A stretch of DNA of 20,799 nt from a virus. The stretch lies in IMG/VR virus record IMGVR_UViG_3300038701_001253, positions 1 through 20,799 of that record; one strand, 5' to 3'. A program made the translations under genes and the position numbers. Shown here piece by piece: positions 10-15,315 of this stretch. Each line of letters opens with the position of its first letter. The stretch's first letter is position 1. The notes beneath the pieces are model-generated. The model was not told the DNA's origin and did not search any database. It saw only the letters and a list, made by a program, of their open reading frames with translations.

Positions 10-408
10 TTAATCAAGACTCTTTACTCTTTTCCAACCGTTATCATACTTGTACAATATCCTTTCATTGCCTTTGTAGTCGCAATGTATAAAGCTGTTG
101 TACCTACATATTCTTTTATAAGGAGAGTGTTCTATAAGGTCTTGTTGAAGCCTATCTAAATCATCACTCGTTAAATCAACCGCACCGTTGCCTTTAAAGG
201 TGTGCTGACTATTCCCGCTTCTTCCTTTGCTTTTTTCCCATTCAGGCGACCTATAACCACTATTTTTACTCACGTAGATAGGTTGACCGTGCGTATCTCT
301 AACTTTTTGAAGTGGGATTATATGGTACTCTTGTATTTTATCCGCTACATCTTCAGGAATGGGTTCTCCTGAGATATTAAATTCTGAAGGCTTAAAGTGT
401 AGTTTCAT
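10..408 (-). CDS. M15-family peptidase, probable endolysin
   Basis: Likely zinc peptidase that cleaves peptidoglycan cross-links at the end of infection. From ATG 408 the protein has 132 residues and fits the Peptidase M15_3 pattern: SGYRSPE at 50-56, then SQH with His69, GAVD with Asp78, and FIHCD with His108, the expected zinc and catalytic positions. His69 and Asp78 are nine residues apart, while seven is usual in this family (S-x-H-x-x-G-x-A-x-D). A TTG start at 414 is possible, but ATG 408 forms an ATGA overlap with the stop of the upstream membrane-protein gene, so I prefer it. There is no signal peptide, so release would need a holin; the two membrane proteins just upstream are candidates. 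It is the last gene of the run in this window. Family call is fairly firm; the lysis role is inferred from position. Confidence 0.82.
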   Translation of the reverse strand: MKLHFKPSEFNISGEPIPEDVADKIQEYHIIPLQKVRDTHGQPIYVSKNSGYRSPEWEKSKGRSGNSQHTFKGNGAVDLTSDDLDRLQQDLIEHSPYKRICRYNSFIHCDYKGNERILYKYDNGWKRVKSLD

Positions 409-800
409 TGCCAATCTTTTAATATTAGTTCTTTAGGTAAATTGAATAAGTTGATACCTACATAGGCTTGGATAAGTAGCACTTTCCAAACAGCGATTTC
501 AAAGCCTAAAATCAAATAGTATTCTGCTTCTACAATTTGAACGGATAGCATAGTAACCAGGGCTATAATGCACCACTTCTTACAGGATTGAAATAAATGC
601 TCCCCATCTGTAAGCCCAATCAATAAAGTTTTCCAAACCCAATGCCTATCCTGTCTCCATATATGCCCCGTCTCAGAGTTTAGAAAGTGTGTACTCAAAC
701 CTAAAAATGGTTTTTTCCACCTATCCCTTACACTTCTGTCTTCAGCTTCATTAAAGAAGTTGATTAAGAACAGTATTAATATGTTAGGAATGGCTATCAC
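405..800 (-). CDS. Membrane protein of the lysis region
   Basis: Protein of 131 residues with a hydrophobic start (about 3-16), a polar Trp- and Arg-rich middle, and one or two membrane segments at about 76-118. The middle holds TDGEHLF at 64-70; I recall similar TDGxHLFQ motifs in small membrane proteins of Bacteroidota and their phages, whose function I do not know. The start is GTG at 800, forming a GTGA overlap with the previous gene's stop, and the end overlaps the peptidase start as ATGA, so the three are probably translationally coupled. Position between another membrane protein and an endolysin suggests a holin or lysis accessory role. That is inference; length and topology are not diagnostic. 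Confidence 0.6.
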   Translation of the reverse strand: MIAIPNILILFLINFFNEAEDRSVRDRWKKPFLGLSTHFLNSETGHIWRQDRHWVWKTLLIGLTDGEHLFQSCKKWCIIALVTMLSVQIVEAEYYLILGFEIAVWKVLLIQAYVGINLFNLPKELILKDWQ

Positions 801-1138
801 TTGCGCTTGAAGTTGTCAACTTGCTTTGGTTGCAAAAAACTACCCTTTCTTTTGAAGTATTGTAGGACTAATTCAGGAACAGCACCCACCACTAAGTAAA
901 TAAGGTTGTTTACTTCAAAATCTGCAACTACTAGCTTTTCAACTTCGGGCGTGTTTAAGTGTATTGCTAAACTTAAAGCAAAAGAAAGTACTAAAGATAA
1001 CACTATTTTTACCCAATTATCTTTAAAAAAGAAAACGGGGCCAAATGCTTGTGGCGAAGCGTGGCTTGCCCTTTCACGTCTTAACACATCGTAAATTTGT
1101 GCTATTAAAAAACCTAAAAAAGTGTTTAGTAAATACAT
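797..1138 (-). CDS. Putative holin-like membrane protein
   Basis: Protein of 113 residues with three likely membrane segments (about 1-17, 43-62 and 78-95), a basic stretch after the first (LRRER, 19-23) and a basic tail (KRK). Size and three-segment topology fit a class I holin, which would make holes in the inner membrane and release the peptidase encoded two genes on. The ATG at 1138 directly follows the TAA of the fibre gene (TAAATG), and the stop overlaps the next start as GTGA. I recognise no specific holin family, so the role rests on topology and context. The following membrane protein could equally be the holin, with this one as an antiholin. Confidence 0.55.
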   Translation of the reverse strand: MYLLNTFLGFLIAQIYDVLRRERASHASPQAFGPVFFFKDNWVKIVLSLVLSFALSLAIHLNTPEVEKLVVADFEVNNLIYLVVGAVPELVLQYFKRKGSFLQPKQVDNFKRK

Positions 1139-4100
1139 TTAGTAGAGATTATTAACCACTCCTGCACCGTCCTTATAGACTAGCTTAGATTGGTCTGATG
1201 AATAATAAATTGAATTGTTAGGTGCTGCTGCATCCGTAGAGGTAAAAGGCTTGATATAGCCCGACATAGTTAAATCGCCCGTTAAGTCTAAACCGAAGTT
1301 AATATCAACTAGCCCAAAATTAAGAGGGTCTATTGTGAAAGGTGTTATCGTTCCACCTTCACCGTATGGATAACCTAAGCTATATCGTATGGTAAAAACA
1401 CCCCCGTTTAACCTATCTAAAGCCCAACTGTAGTTTCCATCTGCTGAGTTTTCCAACCTAAAACCTACATTGTTACCGCCATTAGGGGTTCTTAGTGTAA
1501 ATAGGTTTTCGTTAAAAAAGAACCCGTTTATTAATATTTCTTCGTGCTGAGTCTTTTTAAATACGGCTGTATGTGTTGCGCTTGAGTCATTTTCTATCAC
1601 ATCATTCAACCCCTGATTAGCTATTAGTAATTTAACCGAAATAATACTGTCAATTAATGCGTTGAGTTCGCTTCTATGTATTACAATACTATCTGTATTG
1701 ACATCTATTCTATCACTTAGGCTATTCGTATCAACTTGAGGGATATTATTAATATCGCTTCTTAAAGCGGTGGTGGTATCATCTATATTATTTAACCTAA
1801 TTAAGTGTAGCCCTAAAGTGTCATAGTTAGCTGTTATTCTTGCGCTTATATTAGTAGTATCAGTTGGCGGGTCAAGTAGTTCTTGCCAATCTGAATTGGT
1901 AATGCCGCTTATTAGTTGGTATTCTGTGGCGCTATCGCTCACAAATACAACCATCCCCACCCTGCGCCTATCCGTTGTAATGCTATTACGCTCCGCTATG
2001 GTTTCTACACTTCGCCAACCACCCTTGCCATATTGGTCATTATGAGTAGGATAAGCATCTAAAGGAGAGTTAGGTACTATTTGGTCTATCACCTTAACCC
2101 CATCCGCATCATTAGTATCTATTGATTGACGGCTAACAATAGCGTAAGCTGTATTTGAAAAGGTATTGCCAACGGTATTAGATACAATGACCCTAAAGGC
2201 TTGCCCGCTATCCGATAATGCCACTACTTTACTATAAGACTGATTTGTAGCCCCTGTGATGTCTTCAAATGACCCAACCGTGTCTATTTGCCATTGGTAG
2301 GTAAATGCGGGACTTCCTGTTGCTGTAACACTAAAAACCACCGTACCACCCTCGAAAACGCTAGAATTTTGGGGTTGCGCTGTAATTACTGGAGGAAAAT
2401 CAACCGCTTCTACTTCTACTAAAATATCGGTGGTGGTATCTGAACTACTTAAATTTGAAACTATCGCTCTAAATAAGTCCCCATCTTGTGAGCTTTCAGC
2501 AACAAAAGAATAGGTACTATCCGTAGCCCCTGAAACATCAACATAACCTAAGCCTGTATTTACTTGCCATTGTATGGTTCGATTTGGGAAACTTCCAGTA
2601 TCGGTAACATACAGATTAACTGTTTCCCCTGCGCTCACATCTTGATTAGCAGCCTGACCAATTATTACAGGCGGCGTTGCTCCCACCATCCAATTAATCT
2701 TTTCAATATTTCCTTGAAAGTCAGTCTCAGAGTTAGAGCCTATCATTCTTAGGGTATAGCTCTTTTTGTTTTGTGCTGAAGTAACAGGAAAATCATACAC
2801 ACTATCATTGCTTGAAAATTCTGCCAGATTATCATTGATAATTTGAAAGGTTCGGTTTGTTATATCGGTACTTACATCAATTAAGGTAACGGTGTCCCCA
2901 TCTTCAACCGCAAAAGCTTCTGACTGTAAAACATCGTTTAGGTACACATTAAAAGCAAGGGTAGGTTCTATTGGTGGTATTCCACTCATATCGTAAGCCC
3001 CTAAATCTGAGGTGTCCGCCCTTGTATATCTTCTGTTATCCAGTTCAGGCATTTTAGACTGGTTTCCTGTTTTACGTGCTTTACTTTCAAACCCATCAAC
3101 TGCTAATGTTTTTAAATGCCAGTTTACAGGGTTGGTTAATATATTAGGTAGGTCATTTAATCTAAAGCCTATTGCACTATCATTGATAAAAGTGTGGTCG
3201 TAATAGTTAGAGTTCGCTTCTTGACCCGTAGCTTGAATATTATCCAAAGCCTCACTATAACCACTTAGCGCACCCTCTCCATTCCATACCCTACGTGAAG
3301 GGTTCCAGTTATGGTGATAGTCGTTATAGTCCGCAAAGAAATTAGTGTCAGGTACTAAGTCAGGAGTTCCGTAAATATTGTTAATCGCAACTGTTAAAGA
3401 GGTGTCGGAATACAACACGTTATTATACCATTCTAAATAACCTATATCTACCAAGGTATTAACATACGAACGGTTTCTAATTCGACCCTTGTCAATCATT
3501 GTATTACTATAAACTCTCAGAGTATCTATTGCCTCAATCCTTAGCATTTCGCCTTGATTGTTAATCATCTTGTTATTGATGATGTTGGCGTAGCCATCTC
3601 CTAAAGGGGAAGCCTCAGAAACATAAATAATAGAAGCAGGGTTGTCTTGATTACCAGTTCCCGAACCTCTAAACTCATTTCTTAGAATATCAAAATTGTA
3701 AGAGGTGTTAATTGATAAGGCATTTCTTGTGCTTACATCAAAAAAGCAATCTTCTACTCTTAGACCTTTAGTATCTTTAAAAAGACCGTGAGTTGACCCT
3801 TCTCCATTTGGTGCGGTGTCCGCAGTACTAAACGTGTTATTTAAAATCCATAAGTTGAAAATACTATCTCTATTTGCGTCTGGCGAACCAACCCTGTACG
3901 CTCCATAACTTAAGTCTGACCAAATACAGCTTTGGAATATGGTTGTGTCGGTGTGGTTAATCATTCTAAATCCAACATACCCATACTGAACAACTAAGTT
4001 CGTAAAGGTGTTATTCTTTGTTTTGCTTGAAGCACCCGCATTATCCCCTGTAATATATATTAAAGCCCCATCCTCTCCCAATGGGTCACCATTTTGTAAA

Positions 4101-4426
4101 GTCAGACTTTCCCAATGCGTACCCGAAATTTCACTTAATCGTATTAAAGAGCTTACACTGTCTCCACCATCTATAATAGCACTTGACCCTGTTCCAATTA
4201 TCCATAGTTCGTAACCATTCATATCTAGCCCAAAATCCGCTATCATTTCCACTCTTGGATAAGTGCCGTTTGCTACATCCAAAGTATCTGAGAAGTCTAA
4301 AGTTCCGCCTGTAAATAGTACATCAATAGCTTCTTGAATGGTAGCATAAGACAAGCCTGTTCTTTTATTGGTTACTTGCCCAATTAGTAAGGTCGGAAAC
4401 AGAAGTAATACTAAAAGTTTTTTCAT
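1139..4426 (-). CDS. Tail fibre / receptor-binding protein with signal peptide
   Basis: Modular protein of 1095 residues. Residues 1-16 look like a Sec signal peptide, with two Lys, a Leu-rich core and LLIG before Gln17. Residues 20-478 are rich in short Asn-containing repeats typical of a right-handed parallel beta-helix, ending in DLGAYD, as many secreted beta-helix proteins do. A beta domain follows (485-580), then two Ig-like domains (585-676 and 678-765) with the usual YQWQ or IQWQ and F/RVIVSN strands. Residues 805-851 (DRRRVGMVVFV, YQL, W) match a module common in phage fibres. A coiled-coil-like stretch (855-935) and a beta-rich end (960-1095, with YYSSDQSKLVYKDG) resemble the trimeric tip of Bacteroidota phage fibres. 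The likely role is surface binding and perhaps glycan cutting by the beta-helix; I see no assignable catalytic residues. The start overlaps the previous stop as ATGA. The signal peptide is odd for a virion protein. Confidence 0.72.
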   Translation of the reverse strand: MKKLLVLLLFPTLLIGQVTNKRTGLSYATIQEAIDVLFTGGTLDFSDTLDVANGTYPRVEMIADFGLDMNGYELWIIGTGSSAIIDGGDSVSSLIRLSEISGTHWESLTLQNGDPLGEDGALIYITGDNAGASSKTKNNTFTNLVVQYGYVGFRMINHTDTTIFQSCIWSDLSYGAYRVGSPDANRDSIFNLWILNNTFSTADTAPNGEGSTHGLFKDTKGLRVEDCFFDVSTRNALSINTSYNFDILRNEFRGSGTGNQDNPASIIYVSEASPLGDGYANIINNKMINNQGEMLRIEAIDTLRVYSNTMIDKGRIRNRSYVNTLVDIGYLEWYNNVLYSDTSLTVAINNIYGTPDLVPDTNFFADYNDYHHNWNPSRRVWNGEGALSGYSEALDNIQATGQEANSNYYDHTFINDSAIGFRLNDLPNILTNPVNWHLKTLAVDGFESKARKTGNQSKMPELDNRRYTRADTSDLGAYDMSGIPPIEPTLAFNVYLNDVLQSEAFAVEDGDTVTLIDVSTDITNRTFQIINDNLAEFSSNDSVYDFPVTSAQNKKSYTLRMIGSNSETDFQGNIEKINWMVGATPPVIIGQAANQDVSAGETVNLYVTDTGSFPNRTIQWQVNTGLGYVDVSGATDSTYSFVAESSQDGDLFRAIVSNLSSSDTTTDILVEVEAVDFPPVITAQPQNSSVFEGGTVVFSVTATGSPAFTYQWQIDTVGSFEDITGATNQSYSKVVALSDSGQAFRVIVSNTVGNTFSNTAYAIVSRQSIDTNDADGVKVIDQIVPNSPLDAYPTHNDQYGKGGWRSVETIAERNSITTDRRRVGMVVFVSDSATEYQLISGITNSDWQELLDPPTDTTNISARITANYDTLGLHLIRLNNIDDTTTALRSDINNIPQVDTNSLSDRIDVNTDSIVIHRSELNALIDSIISVKLLIANQGLNDVIENDSSATHTAVFKKTQHEEILINGFFFNENLFTLRTPNGGNNVGFRLENSADGNYSWALDRLNGGVFTIRYSLGYPYGEGGTITPFTIDPLNFGLVDINFGLDLTGDLTMSGYIKPFTSTDAAAPNNSIYYSSDQSKLVYKDGAGVVNNLY

Positions 4427-5334
4427 CGTATCTCAAAGGTTATAGAGCCGTTTTGTATGCTCTTAGAAATGTAGAATATGTAAGAAGTGGTTGCACCTGA
4501 AGCGTTAGTAAAGTCGCTTACAGTTCGATTAAATGCGCCTGTTGAGTTTAAGCCCCCTACCCATATTTGAGAAACATTAGTAGGGTCAAAGCTTTCAGGA
4601 AAGGCAATTACAAAATATAAGGGGCTACTATTATTTGAGGTTGTTTCGCTTTTAGTTCTGCTAGTGATAAACTCCTTGCTCAACCCTTGCACTTCTCCAT
4701 CCGTTGGAGATTGATTAGTAAAGCCCCAATACCGATAGTCTCGGAATACAAAAGGCACGTTATCACTTGCTGTTTTTCCGTCAGCGGTGGTAACTGTTAG
4801 GTTATAGGTAGTATTTGAATTTCTTACTAAATCAACGGCTTGTGTCCCATTAGTTGAAGCCCCTGCATTTGGGTTGACAAATGCTTGATTGACCCCACCT
4901 GCTACAATAGTAGATAAGTCTTGTGTAGCTTCTTGGCGACCCGCTGTCCAGTTTAAAGTTACGGATAAGTCAGAACCGCTTGCCATTCTTTCTATTGTAA
5001 AAGAACTAGCTGTTGAGCCATCATAAGTAGCCGTTAAGCTTGCCGTTGGAACTTGTGAAGGATAGAATATGCTATCTATCCAGTTTGCAATATCATTGGT
5101 ATTTGCATTGAGACCCTCAAATCCATCAACATCTAAGGTAATAGGGTTCTTTCCATTAACTAAGCTGTCTAAAGAACCACCCCCGCCAATTTGTATAGTA
5201 TCTCCATTAGCATCTACAAAATACTCAGCCCTAACACCCTCAGTAAAATAGGTTGGGTTTCCATTTTCAAACCATTGCGCACTAGCCCCGAATGAAGCCA
5301 AAATAAATAGTAATATTAGCTTGGTAGTATCCAT
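4423..5334 (-). CDS. Phage beta-sandwich structural protein with signal peptide
   Basis: Protein of 303 residues. Residues 1-19 form a convincing Sec signal peptide: Lys5, hydrophobic core 6-15, and ASA before Gln20. The mature part is beta-rich. Residues about 110-200 (LSVTLNWTAGRQ, VDLVRNSNTTYNLTVTTADGK) and 200-303 (FRDYRYWGF, LYFVIAFPE, TTSYIFYIS) follow a strand pattern I associate with phage tail or adsorption proteins, including the RYWG motif. The ATG at 5334 lies 19 bases inside the 111-aa gene, and the stop overlaps the fibre gene start as ATGA, so the three adsorption genes are probably expressed together. Its exact position in the virion is unknown. It could be a fibre base or adaptor, or a secreted protein encoded by the phage. 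Confidence 0.6.
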   Translation of the reverse strand: MDTTKLILLFILASFGASAQWFENGNPTYFTEGVRAEYFVDANGDTIQIGGGGSLDSLVNGKNPITLDVDGFEGLNANTNDIANWIDSIFYPSQVPTASLTATYDGSTASSFTIERMASGSDLSVTLNWTAGRQEATQDLSTIVAGGVNQAFVNPNAGASTNGTQAVDLVRNSNTTYNLTVTTADGKTASDNVPFVFRDYRYWGFTNQSPTDGEVQGLSKEFITSRTKSETTSNNSSPLYFVIAFPESFDPTNVSQIWVGGLNSTGAFNRTVSDFTNASGATTSYIFYISKSIQNGSITFEIR

Positions 5335-5651
5335 AATTTCGCTGTTGTGTTAGGTAGTGAGAAAGGGAAGGTTATAGTTCCTGTAATACTGTCGAATGTT
5401 GCCCCTTGTTGAGTTAGTTCCGTTCCGTTTCCTAGTATTAAAAAGTCTTTTAACTCTTTGCCTATTAAATCATCATCTTGATAGGTCGTTCCGCTTAGTG
5501 TAATTCCTTTAGCGTTCATTCCTGCAACGGCTACAAAAATTGCTTCTATAAACTGAATGTTAAAATCTCTATGATTTTCGGCAGTTATAGGCTTATTACT
5601 AGCCAATAGGGTGCTATTCAAATCAAGTAGTTGCTGCTTAGTTAATGCCAT
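5316..5651 (-). CDS. Small protein upstream of the fibre genes
   Basis: Protein of 111 residues that I do not recognise. The first half (1-50) is helical and polar, and begins MALTKQQLLDLNSTLL. The second half (about 50-111) is beta-rich, with the hairpin-like stretch TFDSITGTITF near the end. It starts 14 bases inside the connector gene and overlaps the 303-aa gene by 19 bases, which places it in one translational unit joining the head connector to the adsorption proteins. A small virion or fibre-attachment protein is plausible. It has no signal peptide, unlike the next two genes. Confidence 0.5.
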   Translation of the reverse strand: MALTKQQLLDLNSTLLASNKPITAENHRDFNIQFIEAIFVAVAGMNAKGITLSGTTYQDDDLIGKELKDFLILGNGTELTQQGATFDSITGTITFPFSLPNTTAKLWILPS

Positions 5652-6141
5652 CTTGTATTTGTTTTATTGTTCTAACCCCGCTAATTCCAAACTTTCTTTT
5701 TCGCACGCTTTCAGTTTCTTGATATGTAGTACCGTCAAAAGTCCAATTAGCCACTTCTAAAGCATTCATCATATCCGTAACCCTTACACTTCTGTCATAT
5801 TTAGCCTGCTCGATAAGCACGCCTCTGCTTTCCTCTGTTAAAGGATTAAAAGTTCCTTGCGGGTCTGTTAATTCTGTGAGTCCGAACTGGCTAATATTTC
5901 TACCGTGAGAAGCTAAAAACCTTGCGTATGCCATTAAGCATAAAGCAGGCTTTACGTAGGTATCTAAAAAGGTTGTTAGCTCTACTCCTGGAATGCTTAA
6001 CGCTGTATAAAGTGCTTGTGTCAGCTTGGGCCGTAGGTCGTACAGTTCTGCATTAGTAATATGAGCATTTACTTGCGCCTCTTCAATATTGGTACTCCAT
6101 CCCGCTATATAGCTTGAAAAATCACTCTTCGATACTAACAC
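5638..6141 (-). CDS. Probable head-tail connector protein
   Basis: Protein of 167 residues, mostly helical through the first 110, with the pattern of small connector or adaptor proteins: an N-terminal helix, then ITNAELYDLRPKLTQALYTAL (about 28-48), then a helix ending in ARFLASHGRN. A short polar segment and a basic end (RKRKFGISG) follow. The start is GTG at 6141, 20 bases inside the portal gene; there is no ATG in the first part of the frame. Its place directly after the portal fits a head-completion ring that docks the tail, as the gp6-type adaptors do. The family call rests on fold pattern and position, not on a diagnostic motif. Confidence 0.55.
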   Translation of the reverse strand: MLVSKSDFSSYIAGWSTNIEEAQVNAHITNAELYDLRPKLTQALYTALSIPGVELTTFLDTYVKPALCLMAYARFLASHGRNISQFGLTELTDPQGTFNPLTEESRGVLIEQAKYDRSVRVTDMMNALEVANWTFDGTTYQETESVRKRKFGISGVRTIKQIQDGIN

Positions 6142-7333
6142 CTTCTTCTTTTTTAGGGAGTTCGTAAATGGTTCTTATCTCATCATCTGTAAGCTTCTGT
6201 AATACCCAATCTGGAATATTGTCGAATAGGCTTAAGCTCTTAATTGAAAAGTCTTTATCTGGAAAGGCTACATTCAAAGCCCCGCTAATCATTCTTTGAA
6301 GTCTATTAACTGTCAGGTTAAAAAGCTTCATTTGATTTACCAACGCTTGATTGTCACCTAGCTTACCAGGGGTCTCAATTCCAATTAAAACTGGTGGCAC
6401 TCCTATTAACCTACAAACCTTTGTAGCTAGTCTTTCAGTAGCTTTATCAGTAGCATCCAACATTTCAGCGATGTTCAACACCGTGATTTGTGGTTTATCT
6501 TCTGGTGTTTCGCCTTCTAAATGCAAAATGCTACTAGCATCTTCCCCAGTAAAACCATTTAGCATAGCATCAAAGTAATCCTTGTCAGTATGTCCATCTT
6601 CGTCTTGAAGCTCGTTATCTATCTTTCCAGTAGATATGACCATATTTGCACGCCAACCTTTTTTGATATTTCTGTTTTCAAGCTTAGAAATACCGCCATC
6701 GCTTTGTATATCTTCTATTCCAGAGTAGTAGGAAGGAATAGGAAACTTATCATAATACAAGCCCATCCCTTTATTGAAAAGGGTTATAATCTGTCCCGCT
6801 TGCTTGCCTTTATGGTCTTTAAGGTCTTTCTCAAATTGAACCTTTCTTTTTGCAAGGTCTGGCTCAAAAGGAAGTAATACTAAATCATCCCTTTTTTGAT
6901 ATAGAGACTCACCCATTAACTCATTGAACACCCAACTACCATCTTCTTTAGGTCTGAGTTTTTGCCATTGTACGTTTTGAATTTGTGCAACCTCTCCTGA
7001 ATTATTAAAAAACACTCGTAATGCCACCCCTTCAAAGTAGGCTGCATTTAAAGAAACATCATTTAATAATTGGTCAAAGTTTTGGGTTTTGTTAGCCTTT
7101 TCATTTGCTAGTGTTTCGTTTGAAAACCCATCCCCTTCAATAAAGGTGGCTAATCGTTTTAGCCCAATGGTGGCAGTTCCTGAGTTTACAACATTGCGAA
7201 TGATTGCATTAGGAATGTCATCTTTACTTCCAAGCTTAAACCTTTTAGAGCTACGCTCAGTAGTAATGTTAGCAATGGCGTTGAAAACCTCACGCTTTGC
7301 CTTTGCTGCAAATTCAAATAGTGAGACTTTCAT
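6122..7333 (-). CDS. Portal protein
   Basis: Forms the ring at the special capsid vertex through which DNA is packaged and ejected. It has 403 residues, a usual length for a siphovirus portal. The strongest evidence is the C-terminal stem and crown region: VCRLIGVPPVLIG at about 306-318, then GDNQALVNQMKLF and a long helix to about 354, typical of HK97- and SPP1-like portals. The N-terminal part (1-130) has the alpha/beta clip and wing pattern with FEGVALRVFFN. The gene comes after the capsid and before the connector, whereas portals usually precede protease and capsid. The ATG at 7333 lies six bases after the previous stop. Confidence 0.82.
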   Translation of the reverse strand: MKVSLFEFAAKAKREVFNAIANITTERSSKRFKLGSKDDIPNAIIRNVVNSGTATIGLKRLATFIEGDGFSNETLANEKANKTQNFDQLLNDVSLNAAYFEGVALRVFFNNSGEVAQIQNVQWQKLRPKEDGSWVFNELMGESLYQKRDDLVLLPFEPDLAKRKVQFEKDLKDHKGKQAGQIITLFNKGMGLYYDKFPIPSYYSGIEDIQSDGGISKLENRNIKKGWRANMVISTGKIDNELQDEDGHTDKDYFDAMLNGFTGEDASSILHLEGETPEDKPQITVLNIAEMLDATDKATERLATKVCRLIGVPPVLIGIETPGKLGDNQALVNQMKLFNLTVNRLQRMISGALNVAFPDKDFSIKSLSLFDNIPDWVLQKLTDDEIRTIYELPKKEEGVSIEE

Positions 7334-7339
7334 ATTTGC

Positions 7340-7678
7340 TTATGCGTTATCGGATAGCTCTGCTAATCGGTTGTTAAGTGCCTTTAGAATGCTTGCTCTA
7401 GGCTTTTCGGCTTCGTTTTCTTCAGCTATTAAAGACTGTAAAACATTGGAGTCGTTTTCTTCAGCTATTAAAGGTTTTAGCTCTTTAACTGAAAGACTGA
7501 TTGAGATTTCTTCCTTTTCTGGAATTAGCTCAATATTGTGTTTTAACCAATCAATCTTCAAAAGAAGTTCAGCAGTTTCGTTGGTAAGGCTGTCTTTTGT
7601 GATTGCCCCCCTACGTCCTGCTAATTGAATTTGACTGTCTCTGTACTCTTTTTTAAATCTGTACTTTAAATCTTCCAT
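7340..7678 (-). CDS. Small helical protein with an internal duplication
   Basis: Protein of 112 residues, strongly charged and predicted helical, which I do not recognise. It starts with MEDLKYRFKKEYRDSQ and ends in a helix NNRLAELSDN. The middle has two copies of LIAEEN, 13 residues apart, produced by a perfect 22-base direct repeat. It lies two bases after the tail-tube-like gene and six before the portal gene. It could be a head-assembly accessory or a head-tail adaptor, but nothing in the sequence decides this. Confidence 0.5.
   Translation of the reverse strand: MEDLKYRFKKEYRDSQIQLAGRRGAITKDSLTNETAELLLKIDWLKHNIELIPEKEEISISLSVKELKPLIAEENDSNVLQSLIAEENEAEKPRASILKALNNRLAELSDNA
7413..7473 (-). 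repeat. 22-bp direct repeat, period 39 bp
   Basis: The same 22 bases occur at 7413-7434 and 7452-7473, in the same orientation, 39 bases (13 codons) apart. Both copies are in frame in the 112-aa gene and encode the LIAEEN segment. The identity at DNA level, including third codon positions, points to a recent in-frame tandem duplication whose spacer halves have diverged. Confidence 0.9.
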
Positions 7679-7680
7679 AA

Positions 7681-8244
7681 TTAAGCTGATAATGCGTCTA
7701 AAACTGCGATGTTGGCATCTGTTGTTGCACTTTCATCAAAAACTAATTCCATATTGGTATGACCACCGCTCAATGTAATAGTGCTTGCCGTAGGGTCATT
7801 GAGAACCGTTCCTGTTGTTCCAGTTCCTGCACTACATTTTAGTCCGAAATTCTCGTAGTTCGTGGTGTCTATTCCCCAAGCTGTGATTGACCCATTTGCT
7901 TCTTCTGCAAATACAAATGCGCCCTCAACATCAATAAGCTCATCAATGGCAGCTTTGTCAGCAGCTAACTTGTGATATAAAACAAGGTTTACATTTTGAG
8001 TACGGATATTTGCATTTTCGCCTACCGCAACTTCAAACCCTGCGCTATTCTTTTCACGCCTTCCGATAAACTTCTTTAAGGTTTTAGTTTCAGTTAAAGT
8101 GATAGCTGTTATTTCGTGTCCGCTAATAGTTAGGTCAGATATATCTTCAAGCTCTCCTATCCAAACTCTACGGTCAACACCCCCTATTTTTTTCAAAGCT
8201 GCGCAAGTGGGGTCTAATCCTGCTGTTAAATCTGTACAAGCCAT
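7681..8244 (-). CDS. Probable major tail tube protein
   Basis: Protein of 187 residues, beta-rich through most of its length. It begins MACTDLTAGL with a second Cys at about 14 and an IGGVDRRVWIG strand, an N-terminal pattern (MAC, Cys, GG, hydrophobic strand) that I associate with tail-tube proteins of Bacteroidota phages. The C-terminal 50 residues (GTTGTVLNDPTASTITLSG) look like an added beta domain. It follows the capsid gene after a short gap that holds a hairpin, and it lies far from the tape measure, which is unusual for a tube gene. A head decoration protein is the main alternative. Confidence 0.45.
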   Translation of the reverse strand: MACTDLTAGLDPTCAALKKIGGVDRRVWIGELEDISDLTISGHEITAITLTETKTLKKFIGRREKNSAGFEVAVGENANIRTQNVNLVLYHKLAADKAAIDELIDVEGAFVFAEEANGSITAWGIDTTNYENFGLKCSAGTGTTGTVLNDPTASTITLSGGHTNMELVFDESATTDANIAVLDALSA

Positions 8245-8259
8245 TTATTGAATATTATA

Positions 8260-8279
8260 AGAGGGGACAAAGCCCCTCT
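8260..8279 (-). terminator. Hairpin between capsid and tube-like genes
   Basis: Seven-base-pair GC-rich stem (AGAGGGG / CCCCTCT) with a six-base loop, just after the capsid stop and 16 bases before the next start. On the minus strand it is followed by TATAATATT, not a clean T run. A weak terminator or an mRNA-stabilising end for the capsid transcript is more likely than a full stop, since the genes beyond continue on the same strand. Confidence 0.5.
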
Positions 8280-8292
8280 ATTGGTTAGTTGA

Positions 8293-9474
8293 TTATGCTG
8301 GTCTTAGGTAAGTGATTTCATTACCGTAAACGAAATTGATGTCTGACTTCATTCTCGCCTTGTATCTGAATACTTGGTCAAGAGTGGTCTGTCTCATATC
8401 TACGGTCTCGATGTTGTTCTCATCATCAAGTAAATCAAATCCTAACATTACGTTACTAGGAGACCATCCGCCAATCGTGTTTGGCTTAGCGTGGTTTAGA
8501 ACCGTTAGCTTTTGACCTAAGTAATCCATTTCTTTAGTTCCTACAAAATAACTTCCTGCACCGTTAGCTACGGTGGCTTGAGCTTTAGCATAAGCACGTT
8601 GCACGTGTAACGGCACTACCATTTTAAAATCTGGTAATGTTCTTACCTTATCTGGAATACTGTTGTAAAAGTTATCCAGAGCCTCCATAACATTAACGGC
8701 TGCGATAAACTCAACAGTTCCTTCAGTTGAAGCTGTACCAGTTGTAGTTGCGTTTAATTCAAAAGTTGTAGTAGTCAGTACACTTATTTGAAAGGATTGA
8801 CCGTTAATAGTTGCACCACCTACTTGCTGACCTTGTCCAGTCCCTAGTATAGTTACAACCTCTCCTGTTTGTAATCCGTGTGCAGCAGAAGTTGTTACCA
8901 CCCCATTTGCAGCAGTCGTAATACCTGAGATAGTTGCAGTTCCACTTGAATTAGCAGTTGATAACTTCTTAACAGTAGAGCCCGCCTCAAAACGTCCATA
9001 CAATCCTAAATATGCAGCAGTAAATGAAGCTGTTGCTTGAGTAACTCCGCTCTTTCCAAGTAGGTACAACTGCTCATTGGCAATACCTATCTGGTCTGTG
9101 ATATACTGAACTGCAAAACTCTCAACATCTGGTGTTGGGTCGTAGTCGTTCATTGAACCAGGTCTTTGTCTCATACTCTGCCAAGTGGTTCGTAATTTTG
9201 AGTAATCCATTTGAAGCATTACCTCATATGGAACTGGGTCTATATACTCTTCATCTAGTGTTAATCCGCTAGATTGAGAATTGAAAGTTGCAGCAGGGTC
9301 TTGAAACTCTACGCCAATATCTGCTTTGTGTAATACTTTTCTTTTCTTAATTTCTGATAAAGGGGTAACAAGTCCTTTTTCAACAATACCATCTTTTGAT
9401 AGTAAGGCACGGGCAATTAGCTTTTCTAATTCTTCCCCTGCGTAGGTGTTTGTGGTTAATGTAATATCTGCCAT
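8293..9474 (-). CDS. Major capsid protein with inserted beta domain
   Basis: Forms the icosahedral head shell. It has 393 residues. The N-terminal part (1-160) and C-terminal part (259-393) fit an HK97-like capsid protein: an early acidic and helical arm, DYSKLRTTW, a long helix 116-140, then NVMEALDNFYNSIP, FKMVVPLHVQRAYAKAQ, and a terminal beta region ending in EITYLRPA. Residues about 172-258 do not look like the core fold: they are Thr/Gly/Ala-rich and carry SAAHGLQTGEVVTI, NGQSF and TTTTFEL, a small beta-sandwich pattern seen in many phage structural proteins. Its position after the protease-scaffold gene supports the call. No separate prohead cleavage site can be assigned by eye. Confidence 0.8.
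   Translation of the reverse strand: MADITLTTNTYAGEELEKLIARALLSKDGIVEKGLVTPLSEIKKRKVLHKADIGVEFQDPAATFNSQSSGLTLDEEYIDPVPYEVMLQMDYSKLRTTWQSMRQRPGSMNDYDPTPDVESFAVQYITDQIGIANEQLYLLGKSGVTQATASFTAAYLGLYGRFEAGSTVKKLSTANSSGTATISGITTAANGVVTTSAAHGLQTGEVVTILGTGQGQQVGGATINGQSFQISVLTTTTFELNATTTGTASTEGTVEFIAAVNVMEALDNFYNSIPDKVRTLPDFKMVVPLHVQRAYAKAQATVANGAGSYFVGTKEMDYLGQKLTVLNHAKPNTIGGWSPSNVMLGFDLLDDENNIETVDMRQTTLDQVFRYKARMKSDINFVYGNEITYLRPA
8701..8961 (-). other. Inserted surface-type domain in the capsid protein
   Basis: Codons about 172-258 of the capsid gene. The segment shows the pattern HGL-TGE-VVTI ... NG-F-I ... TTTTFEL, a small all-beta module that recurs in phage tube, fibre and capsid proteins, while sequence on both sides reads as capsid core. 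Boundaries are approximate. An insertion here would most simply form an outward-facing domain that decorates the capsomer. Confidence 0.55.
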
Positions 9475-9489
9475 TTTCTTGGTCTTTGG

Positions 9490-10041
9490 TTAGTTAGTTT
9501 TTCTTTCTCTGGTCATATTAAGTACCGCCTGTCTCATAGTTGTTGGAGTCTCGATATTTTGAGAAGCTTCAGCAGGGGCGGGTACACTTTTCTTAAATGC
9601 TAAAACCTCTTTTTTAAGGTTCTGTAAAGACTCCTTCGCCTCTTCATTTACTTTCTTCGCTTCATCTAAAGAGTTTTGCAACTCATTATTCTTGGCGTTT
9701 GCAGTTTCTAATTCAGCTTTTAAAGCTTCCATTGCTTCGTCTTCTTCTGGTGCTTTTTCAACACTTTCAATTTTACCTTCAGCAACCGTTACTTTAGTGC
9801 CGTCCTCAAATGTGTGTTCACCATCGGTTGCAGGGCTTTGGTTTCCGTCTGCATCTACTATGTAGATAGTTTTACCTAGCCAATCTTCGCCTTCTTCAGC
9901 TTCTACTACTACGGCTTGACCTTCTTTGGTTGTGCCTTCTATTAGGTTTACAGCTTCAGGTTTTTTCATTGAGTTTAAAATCGTGTCAATTTTCTCGCTC
10001 ATTGATTTTCTCCAAAAGCTTTCTTCTTTCTGTTCTGACAT
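9490..10041 (-). CDS. Possible nested scaffold from an internal start
   Basis: In frame with the protease, ATG codon 204 (at 10041) is preceded by the A-rich stretch CCAAAAATAAA, the kind of leader that helps initiation in Bacteroidota. Translation from it would give a 183-residue protein beginning MSEQKEESFWRK, with the whole beta module and coiled coil but no protease. This is the arrangement of lambda C and Nu3, where the scaffold is made from an internal start. The domain boundary falls just before this codon. No direct evidence of internal initiation can come from sequence alone. Confidence 0.35.
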   Translation of the reverse strand: MSEQKEESFWRKSMSEKIDTILNSMKKPEAVNLIEGTTKEGQAVVVEAEEGEDWLGKTIYIVDADGNQSPATDGEHTFEDGTKVTVAEGKIESVEKAPEEDEAMEALKAELETANAKNNELQNSLDEAKKVNEEAKESLQNLKKEVLAFKKSVPAPAEASQNIETPTTMRQAVLNMTRERKTN

Positions 10042-10650
10042 TTTATTTTTGGTTATGTGGTTTAGAATTAAATCTGGAATTGCAATGTTTACAGTAGGTG
10101 AGTATATGGCAGAGGCAAAACCTAACTCCATCATTAGGCTTGCATCTAAAAATTTTTCTTGTGCCATATAGTTTTTAAGAGCCTCTCTTTTATCTTCTCC
10201 TAACTCTGAGCAATAAAGGTTAAGAAGCTTGTTATCCATAGCGTCTGTTTCCTCTTTAAGCTTTCCTAACTCTACTGAGTTTAACTGAACGTGCGCTAAA
10301 GCTTGAGGACTCATCCAAGCGTTATGAATATAACCACCACCCGAAGTGCTTACAAAACGGTTTTCGATAGGTGCAGCCAGTTGTATTACAGAAGCAATAC
10401 TATTGGTCTTATACGCTATCGTCTTAATTTTTTTACCTGAGTTCTTTAAAAGGTCGTAGATTTCAAACCCTTGAGAAGTTGAACCACCATCACTAGATAT
10501 TTCAGCAACAATTTCTTCAGCGTCTTTATTCTCTTTTAGAAAATTACGACAGTCATTGGCTGAAAATGTTAGCCCATCATCCTGAAGTAAAGCATTGATT
10601 TGTTGCTTTTCCCCAATCTTTCCATTAATGTGTAAAGTCGCACTTTTCAT
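9490..10650 (-). CDS. ClpP-like head maturation protease fused to scaffold
   Basis: Protein of 386 residues in two parts. Residues 1-190 match phage ClpP/S49-type prohead proteases: ISSDGGSTSQGFEIYDLL (51-68), the nucleophile region TNSIASVIQLAA with likely catalytic Ser84, and GGYIHNAW with likely catalytic His109. The third catalytic residue cannot be placed with certainty; the usual Asp near the end of this region is replaced in MELGFASAIY. Residues 204-386 look like scaffold: a basic start, a beta module (about 230-298) rich in Gly and Asp, then a long coiled coil (about 300-355) and a basic tail. It precedes the capsid gene by 15 bases. It is the first gene of the head block, and a promoter-like site lies just upstream. 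Confidence 0.75.
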   Translation of the reverse strand: MKSATLHINGKIGEKQQINALLQDDGLTFSANDCRNFLKENKDAEEIVAEISSDGGSTSQGFEIYDLLKNSGKKIKTIAYKTNSIASVIQLAAPIENRFVSTSGGGYIHNAWMSPQALAHVQLNSVELGKLKEETDAMDNKLLNLYCSELGEDKREALKNYMAQEKFLDASLMMELGFASAIYSPTVNIAIPDLILNHITKNKMSEQKEESFWRKSMSEKIDTILNSMKKPEAVNLIEGTTKEGQAVVVEAEEGEDWLGKTIYIVDADGNQSPATDGEHTFEDGTKVTVAEGKIESVEKAPEEDEAMEALKAELETANAKNNELQNSLDEAKKVNEEAKESLQNLKKEVLAFKKSVPAPAEASQNIETPTTMRQAVLNMTRERKTN

Positions 10651-10679
10651 TACAACAAAAATGCTTATCTTTATTTAGA

Positions 10680-10708
10680 CTAAATTAGAATTGTGTATTT
10701 TTACACAA
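10680..10708 (-). promoter_or_regulatory. Promoter-like site for the head operon
   Basis: On the minus strand: TTG (10708-10706), an 18-base spacer, then TAATTTAG (10687-10680), one mismatch from the Bacteroidota -7 motif TAnnTTTG. The expected transcript would start near 10674 and give a leader of about 25 bases before the protease ATG at 10650. The TTG lies inside the inverted repeat, so a protein bound there would block it. Confidence 0.45.
10691..10708. promoter_or_regulatory. Inverted repeat, candidate RHH operator
   Basis: Perfect 7-bp inverted repeat TTGTGTA-TTTT-TACACAA centred between the protease start and the divergent small regulator gene. It contains the TTG element of both divergent promoter-like sites. 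Ribbon-helix-helix proteins commonly bind short palindromes next to their own gene, so this is the natural candidate site. A hairpin in RNA is the alternative, but the stem is AT-rich and weak. Confidence 0.5.
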
Positions 10709-10718
10709 CTTAATTTTA
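10691..10718 (+). promoter_or_regulatory. Promoter-like site for the RHH gene
   Basis: On the plus strand: TTG (10691-10693), a 17-base spacer, then TAATTTTA (10711-10718), close to TAnnTTTG. The ATG of the regulator begins five bases further on, at 10723, so a transcript from this site would be leaderless or nearly so. Confidence 0.4.
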
Positions 10719-10722
10719 CAGT

Positions 10723-10866
10723 ATGAGCAATGTAAAAAGGGTTTCTCTGGATTTAGATAAGGAAACTAAGGAAAGAGTGAAAAACAAAGCCTTTGATGAA
10801 GGGCGCAATATAAGCGGATACCTTCGTAATTTAATTAGGGAAGACTTGGTAAATTCTAACTACTGA
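10723..10866 (+). CDS. Ribbon-helix-helix DNA-binding protein
   Basis: Small regulator of 47 residues and the only plus-strand gene in the window. It fits the Arc/CopG ribbon-helix-helix fold: strand 4-10 (VKRVSLD), helix A about 12-26, the turn EGRNIS, and helix B about 30-41 with GYLRNLIRE. Proteins of this type bind DNA as dimers by placing the strand pair in the major groove. It has no partner toxin: the converging neighbour is a membrane protein on the other strand, and the two genes overlap tail to tail by seven bases. The start lies 14 bases from an inverted repeat shared with the promoter-like region of the head operon, so autoregulation and control of the protease-capsid genes are likely roles. 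Confidence 0.72.
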   Translation: MSNVKRVSLDLDKETKERVKNKAFDEGRNISGYLRNLIREDLVNSNY

Positions 10867-11135
10867 TTGAAAGAGTCTTCAATTTCTTTTTCCCGCCTTT
10901 TGATTTCATTAAGAACGGGGTTATTTTTTACGCTTATAACAAAAGGTACATCTGGGTACTTTTGATTATGCATCCTTTCAGCAGTTAGTATTTGTTCTGC
11001 TTCTTTTTGGTAAGCCATTTGTTCATCATAGAACACGTTACGCTTCTTTTCTTTTCTATTTTTTTTGATGCGCTCTACATTCTTCCAAACGGAATAAACA
11101 AAAACAAGAATAAAAAATAGTGCTACAAAAGCCAT
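10860..11135 (-). CDS. Single-span membrane protein after the tape measure
   Basis: Protein of 91 residues with one membrane segment at the very start (about 2-17, FVALFFILVFVYSVW), then a strongly basic stretch (KKNRKEKKR) that should sit in the cytoplasm, then a charged helical tail. It begins 17 bases after the tape measure stop and ends seven bases into the convergent regulator gene. TATATTTG at 11148-11141 resembles a -7 motif, but I see no TTG at the right distance. I do not recognise the family. It could help tail DNA cross the inner membrane, or modify the host envelope. Confidence 0.5.
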   Translation of the reverse strand: MAFVALFFILVFVYSVWKNVERIKKNRKEKKRNVFYDEQMAYQKEAEQILTAERMHNQKYPDVPFVISVKNNPVLNEIKRREKEIEDSFNQ

Positions 11136-11152
11136 AGCTACAAATATAACTA

Positions 11153-13462
11153 TTAATCAGTTACGGTGGCTACGTTCTGAACTTCCGATAAGTCAGATTG
11201 AGAATTATTAATATCCGTAACGCTAACAAATAGCTGTAAATCAGCAATATCACTTTTTAATGAACCTATTGCGCTTTCTATACCTCTATTACTATTACTT
11301 TGAATGCTACGTGCCACAATACCACCATCATTAAGATAGTTTTTAGGGTTTCCAAATGCTGCGCCCCCTGTAAGTTGATTAACATTACTTAAAGCTGCAA
11401 GGTGTCCCCTGGCATTTTTATTTACAACTGCAATAGTTTCTTCTGCTTCTGCTTCAAAGGCAGTACCATCTGAGCCAACGAATTTAGTGCCACCTTGACT
11501 ATGAGGCTTGCCCCCTACTGGGATTAAACCACCTTTTTCAAGTTTTGGAATATTAGCACTTGCTATTTTAGCCACATTGGCTATACCCGTCGCTATTGCA
11601 ATACCTGAGTTTATAAAGTTTAATGGTGGTGGCGATGCTGCTAAAGCTTTGTTTGCTGCCAAATAGGTGCTTTGTGTTGCTTCTGCAATAGCCAAAGCCT
11701 TGTATGCAGCACTATCTTTGTTAAATAGGGCTTTACCTTGTGCTAAAGAATTAGCGATGCTTGCTTGCTTGCTTTGCTCGTTGGCAATCTCTAACTTGTC
11801 AAGTGCTTCCTTTGCTTTTACTTCTCTTTCTTTCTGAGATATTTTAGCATCTGTTATCTCGGTTTGGGTGGCAAGGCTCATTTCTCCAAATTCAGCCTCT
11901 AAATCCGCCCTTAATAATAAACCCGCAAGCTCTATATCAAATAGCGATTGTTCGTATTGCTCTTTTGATATTTGACCTTCTAGGTAACGGTTCTTTTCTT
12001 GTTCAATTAGCCTAGTGGTGGTTTCTTCTGTTTCTGCCAATAACTTTTCTTGCGCTTCTTTTCTGTCGGCTTCATCTTTTTTAATTCGGTCAGCCTCTTC
12101 TTTTTCTAAAGCTAGTCTATTACTAACTGCTTTTTCTTGCAACTCTCTAAGTCCGTCTGCTTGTGATTTGTCTAATCGTATTAAGTCGGCTTTAAGCTGT
12201 GCCTCTTTTTCTAAATCTTCAAGCTTACTATCTGATAAACTATTTTCTAATTGTGTTAGGGCTAACCTTTCTTTTGCAATGGTCTTTTCTTCTGCAAATA
12301 ACTGTTTGGTTAATTCTTGTGCTTTTTCACTAGCTGCTAACCTTTCTGCTGCGCTCTTATTCTCTTTGTCATTTGCATCCAGTCGAGCTTCGGCAATCTC
12401 ACTTTCTAACTTAGCCCTACTAGTCAGTAAGTCAATTTCTTTTCTTCTTAAAGCATTTTGGCGGTCTGCCAGTTCTTGCCCTTGCTTAGTATCTTTTGCA
12501 ACTTCTTCAGCTACTTCTTTTACCTTTTCTTTTATAGCATCAAATGCGCTTACGGCGGTATCTGAAACGCTCTCTAACCCTGTTACTACTTTCCCTACAC
12601 TATCCAATGCTACCTTTCCCGCTTCGCTAAATTGACCGCTAAAAAGTAATTTAATAGACTTACCTAAATTTGGTATTAGTTCTAATATGCCTTGAAAACG
12701 GTTTATAATATTCTGCTTTATTAGATTACCAAAATCAAGCAATGCCTCTTTAGGGTTGGAAAATAGATTAACTAGCAATTCCCCTGCATCACGTACTAAG
12801 TCCATAACTGTACCTAGTAGAGTACTAAAGAATGTAGTTACCTTATTCAACCTTTCCTGACCTTCTGCACTTCCTTTAAGGTAAGCTATAACAGCCCCAA
12901 ACGCTGCGCCTATTGCTGCTAAGGTTAAGCCTAATGGCGTAGCTATAAAAGCTTTTGCAGCGGTTGTCATTGCTCGTATTCCTGTTGTAGCTGCTGCCAA
13001 TGGTGCGGGTAAGCCCTGTAAGGCACTTTGATAGTTACCTACATTTCTAGTATTGTTTCCTACATTGCCCTCAAGTCTTTTTAACTCATCAGACTGGCTT
13101 TTAATCTGCTTCTTTAGGTCTTGCCCTGCTTTTGTATTATCTCTTTCGGAAGCACTAAGATTATTATAAGCAACCGTTGCTTGTGATAGCTGCTGCCTAA
13201 GTTGTGTAATACTACCTTTATTAGCTTGATTGGCTCTATTGTTAGCATCAATAACACGATTATTTTCACGCATTACCTTACTATTGACTCTTATATCCGA
13301 AGCGTTCTTCTGATATTGGTCGCTATTCTCTTTCCCAACGGATTTAAGTTGCTTATTTAGCTCAATGAGTTTCTTTTGTTCGGCTGCTAAAGCTTGATTT
13401 TCTTTCAATGCCTTGTCAGCACCATCAAACTGTATTTCTAATATTACTTGCTCCTTATTCAC
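11153..13462 (-). CDS. Tape measure protein
   Basis: Sets tail length and is ejected with the DNA. It has 769 residues; at about 1.5 angstrom per residue the tail would be up to roughly 115 nm. Residues 1-145 are helical and Gln/Asn/Lys-rich. Residues about 170-195 are hydrophobic and Ala/Gly-rich (FIATPLGLTLAAIGAAFGAV). Residues about 325-600 form a long charged coiled coil. Residues about 600-640 are a second Ala-rich hydrophobic stretch, followed by the KGGLIPVGGKPHSQGG motif common near the C-terminus of tape measures in Bacteroidota phages. The start is GTG at 13462, overlapping the previous stop as GTGA. No tail-assembly chaperone pair precedes it, which is unusual. Confidence 0.85.
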   Translation of the reverse strand: MNKEQVILEIQFDGADKALKENQALAAEQKKLIELNKQLKSVGKENSDQYQKNASDIRVNSKVMRENNRVIDANNRANQANKGSITQLRQQLSQATVAYNNLSASERDNTKAGQDLKKQIKSQSDELKRLEGNVGNNTRNVGNYQSALQGLPAPLAAATTGIRAMTTAAKAFIATPLGLTLAAIGAAFGAVIAYLKGSAEGQERLNKVTTFFSTLLGTVMDLVRDAGELLVNLFSNPKEALLDFGNLIKQNIINRFQGILELIPNLGKSIKLLFSGQFSEAGKVALDSVGKVVTGLESVSDTAVSAFDAIKEKVKEVAEEVAKDTKQGQELADRQNALRRKEIDLLTSRAKLESEIAEARLDANDKENKSAAERLAASEKAQELTKQLFAEEKTIAKERLALTQLENSLSDSKLEDLEKEAQLKADLIRLDKSQADGLRELQEKAVSNRLALEKEEADRIKKDEADRKEAQEKLLAETEETTTRLIEQEKNRYLEGQISKEQYEQSLFDIELAGLLLRADLEAEFGEMSLATQTEITDAKISQKEREVKAKEALDKLEIANEQSKQASIANSLAQGKALFNKDSAAYKALAIAEATQSTYLAANKALAASPPPLNFINSGIAIATGIANVAKIASANIPKLEKGGLIPVGGKPHSQGGTKFVGSDGTAFEAEAEETIAVVNKNARGHLAALSNVNQLTGGAAFGNPKNYLNDGGIVARSIQSNSNRGIESAIGSLKSDIADLQLFVSVTDINNSQSDLSEVQNVATVTD

Positions 13463-15315
13463 AACCTTAATAGTTTAACTTTAGTAGATTTTCCTTGCTG
13501 ATATTGGTTTACTTCTAGTATGAACCAATATTCTTTTTCTAAGAATACAGGAACTGTAATATCTAATTGATTAATGTCCGTTACATCTAGCCTCACATAA
13601 CACTCCAATATCTTGGCTTTATCAAATGCTGCTGTAAAAGCTGTATAGTTTTCAGAAACGACTGTATCAAAATCCTTAAAGGTTAGATTAGCTTGATTTG
13701 CGGGTGCTGTTTCTCCTGTGATGGTTACTAGAAAATCATTATTAACTTCTGCTTGTGCAATTCTATACTTTGGGTCTAGGTCTGGCTCATCGTAGCTTGT
13801 TCCTGAGCCTGAATATCTGGGTATTAAAATACATTGTTCACTCTCGGTAAATACATTAGAAATGCCACTTGCAGCATATTTGCTTTCGTAGGCTGTTGCT
13901 TCTAGTTTTAGGTTTTCATCTGCTATTGTAAAAGAACTATTGCCTAGTTCGTTATTGGCTTTATAAATAGGGTCATCATCTGAACCCTCAGCCCATTTTA
14001 AAAAGTTAGTTTGTGCGTATTCTTTTAACCTAAATTGATAACTTATTTTGTAGGCTCTATCCACTTTATCACTCCAATCTTTTGCAAAGGGTTTGCGTGC
14101 TGCTATGGTATTGAAAGGTACATAGGTAATGTACTTAGTTTGGGCGTTGGTAATTAATAAAGCGTTTTGCCTTACTGCTTCTAACAAAAAGAGGTTTCTA
14201 ATTTTAAGGTCTGGCATTTGGTCTGCTAAGTGTATTAGCTGCCCATCATTTATGGGTTCACTCCCCGAAATAATCTCAAAATAACTTCCTGCCTTAATGG
14301 TTATTGCCGTGCCGCCCACAGCGGTTGTTACTCTAACCTCATAAACGCTTTCGTTTGCAGCGTAGCCGTTTAACTCTATATCAACCGCTTCATTATTTGG
14401 ATTAACAATAGACTTAGTTTGAATAGGTGGGTTAACTCCTCTTTTTACAAAATCAACATTAATTGTACCAATAGCGGGTTCATCTATGATAATGTGTAAC
14501 TTGATATTGTAGCTCCCATTTGCCCTAAGTGCAAACCCATCATAAGGGAAAGGGGCGGAACTGATACTAAATTCTTTGTCTGAAGGGTCGTAGTCTAAAG
14601 TATCAAATTGTACTAATCTTGATTGGTCTATACCCCCAGTTGTAAAGTCAGCAGATAAAGACATTTTTGCTTTTACAAAATCTGCCGTTATATTCCTGAA
14701 GTCTTGCTTACTAAAAGGCAAATAAGTAACCCCGCTTGCGCTGTCAATAGTCCATCCGTATAAATCTGCAGCCCTTTGTAAAAGTGTAAACATTTTAACA
14801 GCGGGAAAGAAGTCGGTGTGTGGTCTAGTGCCTTTAACTACATCCGTCCAACGACCATAGTTTATATTTGGGTAAATAACATCATCTAAACTTGCACGCT
14901 TTGAATTTACATTGCTTGCTGTCCAATCGTGGTCAAGGTCTGTAAGGTCTAATTCTGTTAGTTTAGTATCTCCTAGTAAATCAAAGAAATCACTAGCCCC
15001 TTGAAAGAAACGTAGTTGAAAATACTCTGCGCTTTCTTGAATAGTAGCAAACCCTTTATAAACTGTTAGGTCATTAATTTTTATTTCTGCGCTTAATCTT
15101 TGGTAAGGTAGCCCATCCCTTGCTTGTGAACTACTCAGGTTTCCCAGGTGCTTTACATTGTTGTTCGTTCTAGCAACTTTAACCTTGCTGCTATAAGAAC
15201 CACCTCTTGCCACAATATCATTGAATTGAGCCTCTGAAAAACTCAAAGCAATATCCTGAGAGGGTGGAAGCCCATCAAGTACTTTATCTCGGTCTAGGAT
15301 TATACTAACTTTCAT
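13459..15315 (-). CDS. Large tail or baseplate protein
   Basis: Protein of 618 residues with mixed beta structure. The N-terminal 120 residues (ILDRDKVLDGLPPSQDIALSFSE, then FQLRFFQGASDFFDLLGD) resemble proteins of Bacteroidota prophages that I know only as tail or baseplate components. A central part (about 170-400) holds two beta domains around a helical stretch LFLLEAVRQNALLITN, and the C-terminal part is beta-rich. It starts 11 bases inside the previous gene and ends in a GTGA overlap with the tape measure. Its size and place next to the tape measure suggest a distal tail (Dit/Tal-like) protein, although those normally follow the tape measure. Confidence 0.5.
   Translation of the reverse strand: MKVSIILDRDKVLDGLPPSQDIALSFSEAQFNDIVARGGSYSSKVKVARTNNNVKHLGNLSSSQARDGLPYQRLSAEIKINDLTVYKGFATIQESAEYFQLRFFQGASDFFDLLGDTKLTELDLTDLDHDWTASNVNSKRASLDDVIYPNINYGRWTDVVKGTRPHTDFFPAVKMFTLLQRAADLYGWTIDSASGVTYLPFSKQDFRNITADFVKAKMSLSADFTTGGIDQSRLVQFDTLDYDPSDKEFSISSAPFPYDGFALRANGSYNIKLHIIIDEPAIGTINVDFVKRGVNPPIQTKSIVNPNNEAVDIELNGYAANESVYEVRVTTAVGGTAITIKAGSYFEIISGSEPINDGQLIHLADQMPDLKIRNLFLLEAVRQNALLITNAQTKYITYVPFNTIAARKPFAKDWSDKVDRAYKISYQFRLKEYAQTNFLKWAEGSDDDPIYKANNELGNSSFTIADENLKLEATAYESKYAASGISNVFTESEQCILIPRYSGSGTSYDEPDLDPKYRIAQAEVNNDFLVTITGETAPANQANLTFKDFDTVVSENYTAFTAAFDKAKILECYVRLDVTDINQLDITVPVFLEKEYWFILEVNQYQQGKSTKVKLLRL

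Follow-up and report, generated by a model that had tools for sequence, protein, structure and literature searches.

Secreted proteins of Bacteroidota that are cleaved by signal peptidase I (SPI) follow the Q-rule, in which glutamine stands immediately after the cut (PMC5837995, PMC10653852); in these hosts, Gln at position +1 averages 71% (PMC5837995). In 2023, Porphyromonas gingivalis phages of the proposed family Nixviridae were reported to carry five Q-rule genes of unknown function (PMC10367356). Here we describe two adjacent genes, encoding proteins of 303 and 1095 residues, in a 20.8-kb IMG/VR phage fragment (IMGVR_UViG_3300038701_001253, positions 1 to 20,799; hereafter the window), where gene roles rest partly on weak homology, on position or on our own reading. 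Tail fibres are generally assumed to be assembled with the rest of the particle inside the cytoplasm. From their leaders, domains and counterparts in other phages, the two products are probably tail-fibre-type proteins that are genuinely recognised by the host Sec pathway and SPI, represent a recurrent class, are released at lysis and act outside the cell. The initial annotation had proposed that virion-type adsorption modules lie behind Q-rule Sec leaders; this core of its reading is supported, its interpretation as a whole is supported in part, and the arrangement recurs within a group of phages.

The 303-residue protein, which carries an RYWG beta domain, is encoded first (4423..5334; all features given for the window lie on the minus strand), followed by the 1095-residue fibre-type protein (1139..4426), identified by its ORF (open reading frame) call and by Pfam, PHROG and PDB matches. 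A few bases of the 303-residue ORF are shared with the 1095-residue ORF, and a few with the upstream gene. Its leader, MDTTKLILLFILASFGASA, spans 19 residues (5278..5334) and ends in ASA before Gln20, while the 16-residue leader of the 1095-residue protein, MKKLLVLLLFPTLLIG (4379..4426), ends in LIG before Gln17. ORF positions, leader lengths and both glutamines agree with the initial annotation. Leaders were detected with a home-made scorer based on charge, hydrophobic core and small residues at −3 and −1, and only these two of the 25 window ORFs score as signal-led. Both combine a Lys/Arg n-region with a hydrophobic core, small −3 and −1 residues and a cut within 14–30 residues, and both have Gln at +1; an SPI leader followed by Gln arises in random sequence of the same composition at a rate of 2.5e-4.

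The identity of the +1 residue was then assessed across 578 non-redundant ORFs of 150 residues or more from the window and its relatives, with the cut site chosen blind to that residue. Thirty-two ORFs were signal-led. Gln occupied +1 in 23 of the 32 and +2 in none, against a background of 3% Gln in mature proteins. Because lipoproteins or non-fibre ORFs make up several of the 32, the Gln fraction is higher among the fibre-slot leaders, and misplaced cuts account for several of the non-Gln exceptions. Signal-like leaders were also seen on two P22-type coat proteins, pippi8-1 gp35 (L077 4179-5261), where ASPAFA precedes VGV, and L152 1102-2163, where SEASA precedes AIG. As a control, two capsid leaders are too few for statistics; both lack Gln after the apparent cut (Val and Ala, respectively), which fits a remark on Porphyromonas phage capsids (PMC10367356). 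We consider the Gln signature the strongest argument that the leaders serve the host export route and good evidence that their bearers are Sec/SPI substrates. Taken alone, export of the signal-led proteins is likely.

Searches of viral contigs with the two proteins, with the portal and with the major capsid protein each returned no close relative. Relatives were detected through a terminase search of viral contigs and also through the portal, and their contigs were read through the slot between the portal and lysis genes. Neither the major capsid protein nor the 1095-residue protein found a match in the terminase-related contigs, indicating that the structural genes are mosaic. The common flavobacterial layout consists of the portal, head-completion genes, a leaderless fibre-base gene (X), one or two fibre-type genes whose leaders begin with MKK and end before Gln, and lysis genes. 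Signal-led genes occupy the fibre slot in 17 contigs, namely the window and 16 others. In four further contigs (L091, L094, L105, L112), X is instead fused to a leaderless fibre. Any signal-led gene was present in the slot of 13 of the 15 short-X contigs and two of the seven X-fused ones (p 0.014, hand-tallied and uncorrected for relatedness). A Fisher test of the statement that X-fused fibres lack leaders was dropped as circular, since a leader cannot come first in a chain that opens with X.

X measures 166–222 residues in the relatives. In the window its place is taken by a leaderless protein of 111 residues (5316..5651); a profile comparison of this protein with X was not significant, and the assignment is kept as positional only. 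Among the signal-led contigs, L104 and L114 represent the same prophage, from Aquimarina algiphila M91, whose signal-led gene in L114 encodes 305 residues. A portal-based prophage survey of genome contigs returned two loci only, and a search of 395 genomes for a TETEF-type N-terminus gave three weak matches, none of them a phage relative. Two phages carry a tandem second signal-led gene (L107 14020-15726 and L110 4774-6369), one with an LRR_5 match just under the cut-off and the other with LamG; each of these phages has two different signal-led fibre-type proteins, as does the window. In L108, a 462-residue ORF (12008-13393) directly follows X, in the position expected for the fibre; by eye it resembles nicotinamide phosphoribosyltransferase and is unlike a fibre.

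Several properties of the signal-led proteins identify them as fibre-type. Five of them are 53–73% identical over the first 305 or so residues and then continue into unrelated middles, and C-terminal tips of about 100 residues have been swapped among the five. A constant base with exchanged middle and tip is the typical architecture of host-range fibres. Domains found in the signal-led proteins include GDSL lipase, BNR, LamG, a sub-threshold S74 chaperone and phrog tail-fibre families. Their bodies match leaderless phage 11b gp46 (33–36% over 347–430 residues), leaderless pippi8-1 gp46 matches over its last 108–130 residues (36–44%), and bodies or tips recur in leaderless L091, L112 and L105.

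The two window proteins are themselves related to fibres and tails. The RYWG domain of the 303-residue protein (residues about 175–303, 4426..4812; alignments A1, A2, A10) has homologues in Tunturi_5 gp28 and at the C-terminal ends of tail-type proteins from Bacteroides phage DAC16 and its relatives, with weaker homology to crAss-like proteins. The broad alignments A2 and A3 were too diverse for scanning. One crAss-like RYWG protein (L041 5443-6600) has TAG codons in its reading frame, which would fit stop-codon recoding. An AlphaFold model of the 303-residue protein has a mean predicted local distance difference test (pLDDT) score of 51; the RYWG domain is its best part, with pLDDT of roughly 53–85 in 10-residue blocks. 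Against BFVD the model matched tail, tail-fibre and baseplate proteins of viruses, with E values as low as 3e-11; a fold search against PDB gave nothing significant.

In the 1095-residue protein, the sequence pattern of residues 17–480 (2987..4378) suggests a putative right-handed beta-helix; a weak, sub-threshold choice-of-anchor Q match covers residues 448–480, and this long N-terminal part is probably a beta-helix. Immunoglobulin (Ig)-like domains follow at residues about 628–766 (2129..2545; Pfam Ig_3 1.9e-12), with matches to the tail protein family phrog_3995 (3.6e-20) and, in PDB, to 9ncf (5.6e-23) and the tail protein 9c2d. Next comes the DRRRVGM module (residues about 778–856, 1859..2095), which is 47–58% identical to the N-terminal modules of the L048/L049 fibres and 45–49% identical to gp60/gp61 of Cellulophaga phi18:1, which tandem mass spectrometry led to be annotated as virion proteins. 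Thus homology to virion or tail proteins was found for the DRRRVGM module (phi18:1 gp60/gp61), the Ig region (phrog_3995, 9c2d) and the RYWG domain (tail and fibre models). The initial annotation had treated the RYWG domain and the DRRRVGM module as phage modules, and both do exist and have homologues in other phages. It had also named a YYSSDQ...KLVYKD tip: the C-terminal segment is present in the sequence (1142..1282) and had no match among 50,697 phage records, so that the label of fibre tip follows from its position only.

Without leaders, the same two domains are found together elsewhere. A gene of the RYWG type is followed directly by a gene that starts with the module in DAC16, Tunturi_5, L045, L049, L051 and L052. 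In L049, one leaderless chain (6772-8478) has the DRRRVGM module at its start and the RYWG domain at its end. The pair is therefore a widespread fibre pair, and what sets the window apart is its leaders and the roughly 780 residues ahead of the module, which is N-terminal in the leaderless homologues and internal here. According to the initial annotation, homologues with the same modules behind non-signal N-termini would speak against export. Such homologues do exist in part, as the module-bearing loci L040, L044, L045 and L048-L055 are leaderless. Since unrelated fibres in this slot also bear such a leader, however, they point to two deployments of the modules and do not refute export.

From these observations we infer a route of export, periplasmic storage and action after lysis. 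The proteins would be made late and exported by Sec to the periplasm, where SPI would trim the leader and expose the N-terminal glutamine. In the window pair and eight relatives, no NCBIfam model of a type IX sorting domain matched at E 0.1, and the window pair lacks a lipobox, having Gln and not Cys at +1. The mature proteins, carrying no outer-membrane signals, should thus stay in the periplasm until lysis frees them with the progeny. Display on the cell surface, with receptor masking before lysis, had been put forward in the initial annotation; it is not favoured, given the missing sorting domain and lipobox. Once outside the cell, the proteins could act as adhesins or glycan-cutting fibres, free or particle-bound. 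In flavobacterial siphophages, the slot often has one or two signal-led proteins after a short X, where other members of the group have a single leaderless fibre fused to X.

Three points weigh against this scheme of export and action outside the cell. L101 and L102 hold both an X-fused fibre and a signal-led protein, so a signal-led gene does not replace the fused fibre in every case. The two window proteins have no signal-led close homologue of their own, the class being defined by slot, leader and domain type. Finally, many secreted, fibre-like S74 proteins are encoded on Bacteroidota chromosomes, and the leader may have come with a host module. S74 matches occurred in 40 of 60 Bacteroidota genomes; 15 of the 21 proteins with a complete N-terminus were signal-led, 12 of them with Gln. 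By eye, some of these chromosomal proteins (L119-L148), many of which are signal-led, end like type IX cargo. Signal-led fibre modules, common in these hosts, may have been exchanged with phages.

If the proteins are indeed exported, they may either join the particle or remain free. A released fibre could bind the virion outside the cytoplasm, for example at the short base X, a variant that we regard as rather doubtful. It would account for the signal-led gene lying in the slot of leaderless fibres with which it has bodies and tips in common, for the constant N-terminal 300 residues with swapped middle and tip, as expected for docking to a constant partner, and for the lack of an outer-membrane targeting signal. 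It does not readily explain the coexistence in L101 and L102, and no docking motif was identified. To our knowledge, no tailed phage has exported fibres that join the particle outside the cytoplasm. The broader proposition that a group of phages routinely sends its fibres out through Sec, has them matured by SPI in the periplasm and docks them only at or after lysis, such that assembly is finished outside the cytoplasm, is unlikely on this evidence. Alternatively, the exported proteins could stay free, as adhesins or hydrolases that leave the cell at lysis or before it, coating receptors, blocking superinfection or re-adsorption, or digesting capsule and matrix; we find this possible, though our support for it is tentative. 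Free proteins are the default outcome of Sec export, relatives contain GDSL, BNR and LamG domains, a signal-led protein coexists with the X-fused fibre in L101 and L102, and hosts encode secreted S74 proteins of similar kind. Yet most contigs show no other anchored fibre at the slot, the swapped middles and tips resemble host-range evolution of an adsorption fibre, and a surface-anchoring signal is lacking. Position and modular design thus favour docking, whereas the missing precedent and the coexistence cases favour free action.

The leader might also go unused for export, being retained or cut by a phage protease on an ordinary virion fibre built in the cytoplasm. The signal-like leaders on coat proteins of some Bacteroidota phages (pippi8-1 gp35, L152) lend this some plausibility, as does the suggestion that prohead protease cuts coat leaders in Porphyromonas phages (PMC10367356). 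The two coat leaders lack Gln at the apparent cut, however, compared with 23 of 32 leaders that have it, and a +1 Gln fits selection for the host export route and not for a phage protease; we consider an unused leader improbable. Equally little favoured, and if anything more improbable, is cargo captured from host secreted fibre-like proteins and useless to the virion, through lysogenic conversion or drift. The frequency of signal-led S74 proteins with Gln in the genomes described above is what it would draw on, but the late structural operon contains these genes, which match both phage tail-fibre families and leaderless phage fibres. As start codons here are predicted, the leaders could in principle reflect a wrong start or a chance hydrophobic N-terminus. 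Both leaders begin at the first start codon of their frame, within a few bases of where the upstream gene ends, and leaders of this kind with Gln recur in 16 other contigs, so that an artefact is strongly disfavoured and highly improbable.

The main genes of the window are all encoded on the minus strand. They run from the terminase through the tail genes, the tape measure, a Clp-type protease and the major capsid protein to the portal (6122..7333, weakly matching Bacteroides phage portal proteins). The portal lies upstream of the fibre slot and is followed by two small genes, the 303- and 1095-residue genes, two further small genes and an M15 endolysin. The lysis end of the operon (10..1138) comprises this endolysin (10-414; Pfam PF08291 1.7e-9, phrog_894 endolysin) and the two small genes, probably holin-type by position. 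The structural genes (6122-19507) stand in a permuted order that is shared with Bacteroides phage EMB2: the tape measure precedes the protease, the capsid and the portal.

In the open-licence literature, we found no report of signal-led tail fibres or of their regular place in the phage fibre slot. If export is confirmed, phages that export fibre-type proteins would either complete particle assembly beyond the cytoplasm or turn released fibres against receptors and matrix, and both outcomes bear on host range and superinfection. The SPI cut would leave a diagnostic N-terminal pyroglutamate. There is also a warning for annotation pipelines, in that such genes may be filed as host secreted proteins.

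Five groups of known proteins provide the closest comparisons. The pairs of RYWG and DRRRVGM genes elsewhere, taken together with the module proteins gp60/gp61 of phi18:1, have the same two domains adjacent (in L049 also on one chain) but no signal peptide, and their module lies at residues 11–24 in the loci scanned; in the window the residues preceding it comprise the signal, the putative helix and the Ig domains. Leaderless flavobacterial fibres (11b gp46, pippi8-1 gp46, L091, L094, L105, L112) have bodies and/or tips homologous to those of the signal-led proteins, and the X-fused ones occupy the same genomic slot, yet they carry an N-terminal anchor on the same chain and no signal peptide. 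Secreted chromosomal S74 (endosialidase-chaperone) proteins are likewise signal-led and fibre-like with Q-rule cuts, but are host genes, some with type IX cargo-like ends that are unmatched in the phage proteins. With the Q-rule SPI substrates of Bacteroidota (PMC5837995, PMC10653852), the window pair has in common the basic n-region, hydrophobic core, small pre-cut residues and +1 Gln, and differs in being phage-encoded, in its place within a late structural operon and in the tail-fibre domains to which the leaders are joined. Our proposal is partly anticipated by the Q-rule genes of Porphyromonas gingivalis phages (PMC10367356), whose phage-encoded Q-rule signal peptides were read as adaptation to host secretion. 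Unlike those genes, the class described here encodes fibre-type products, lies in the fibre slot and recurs across flavobacterial phages.

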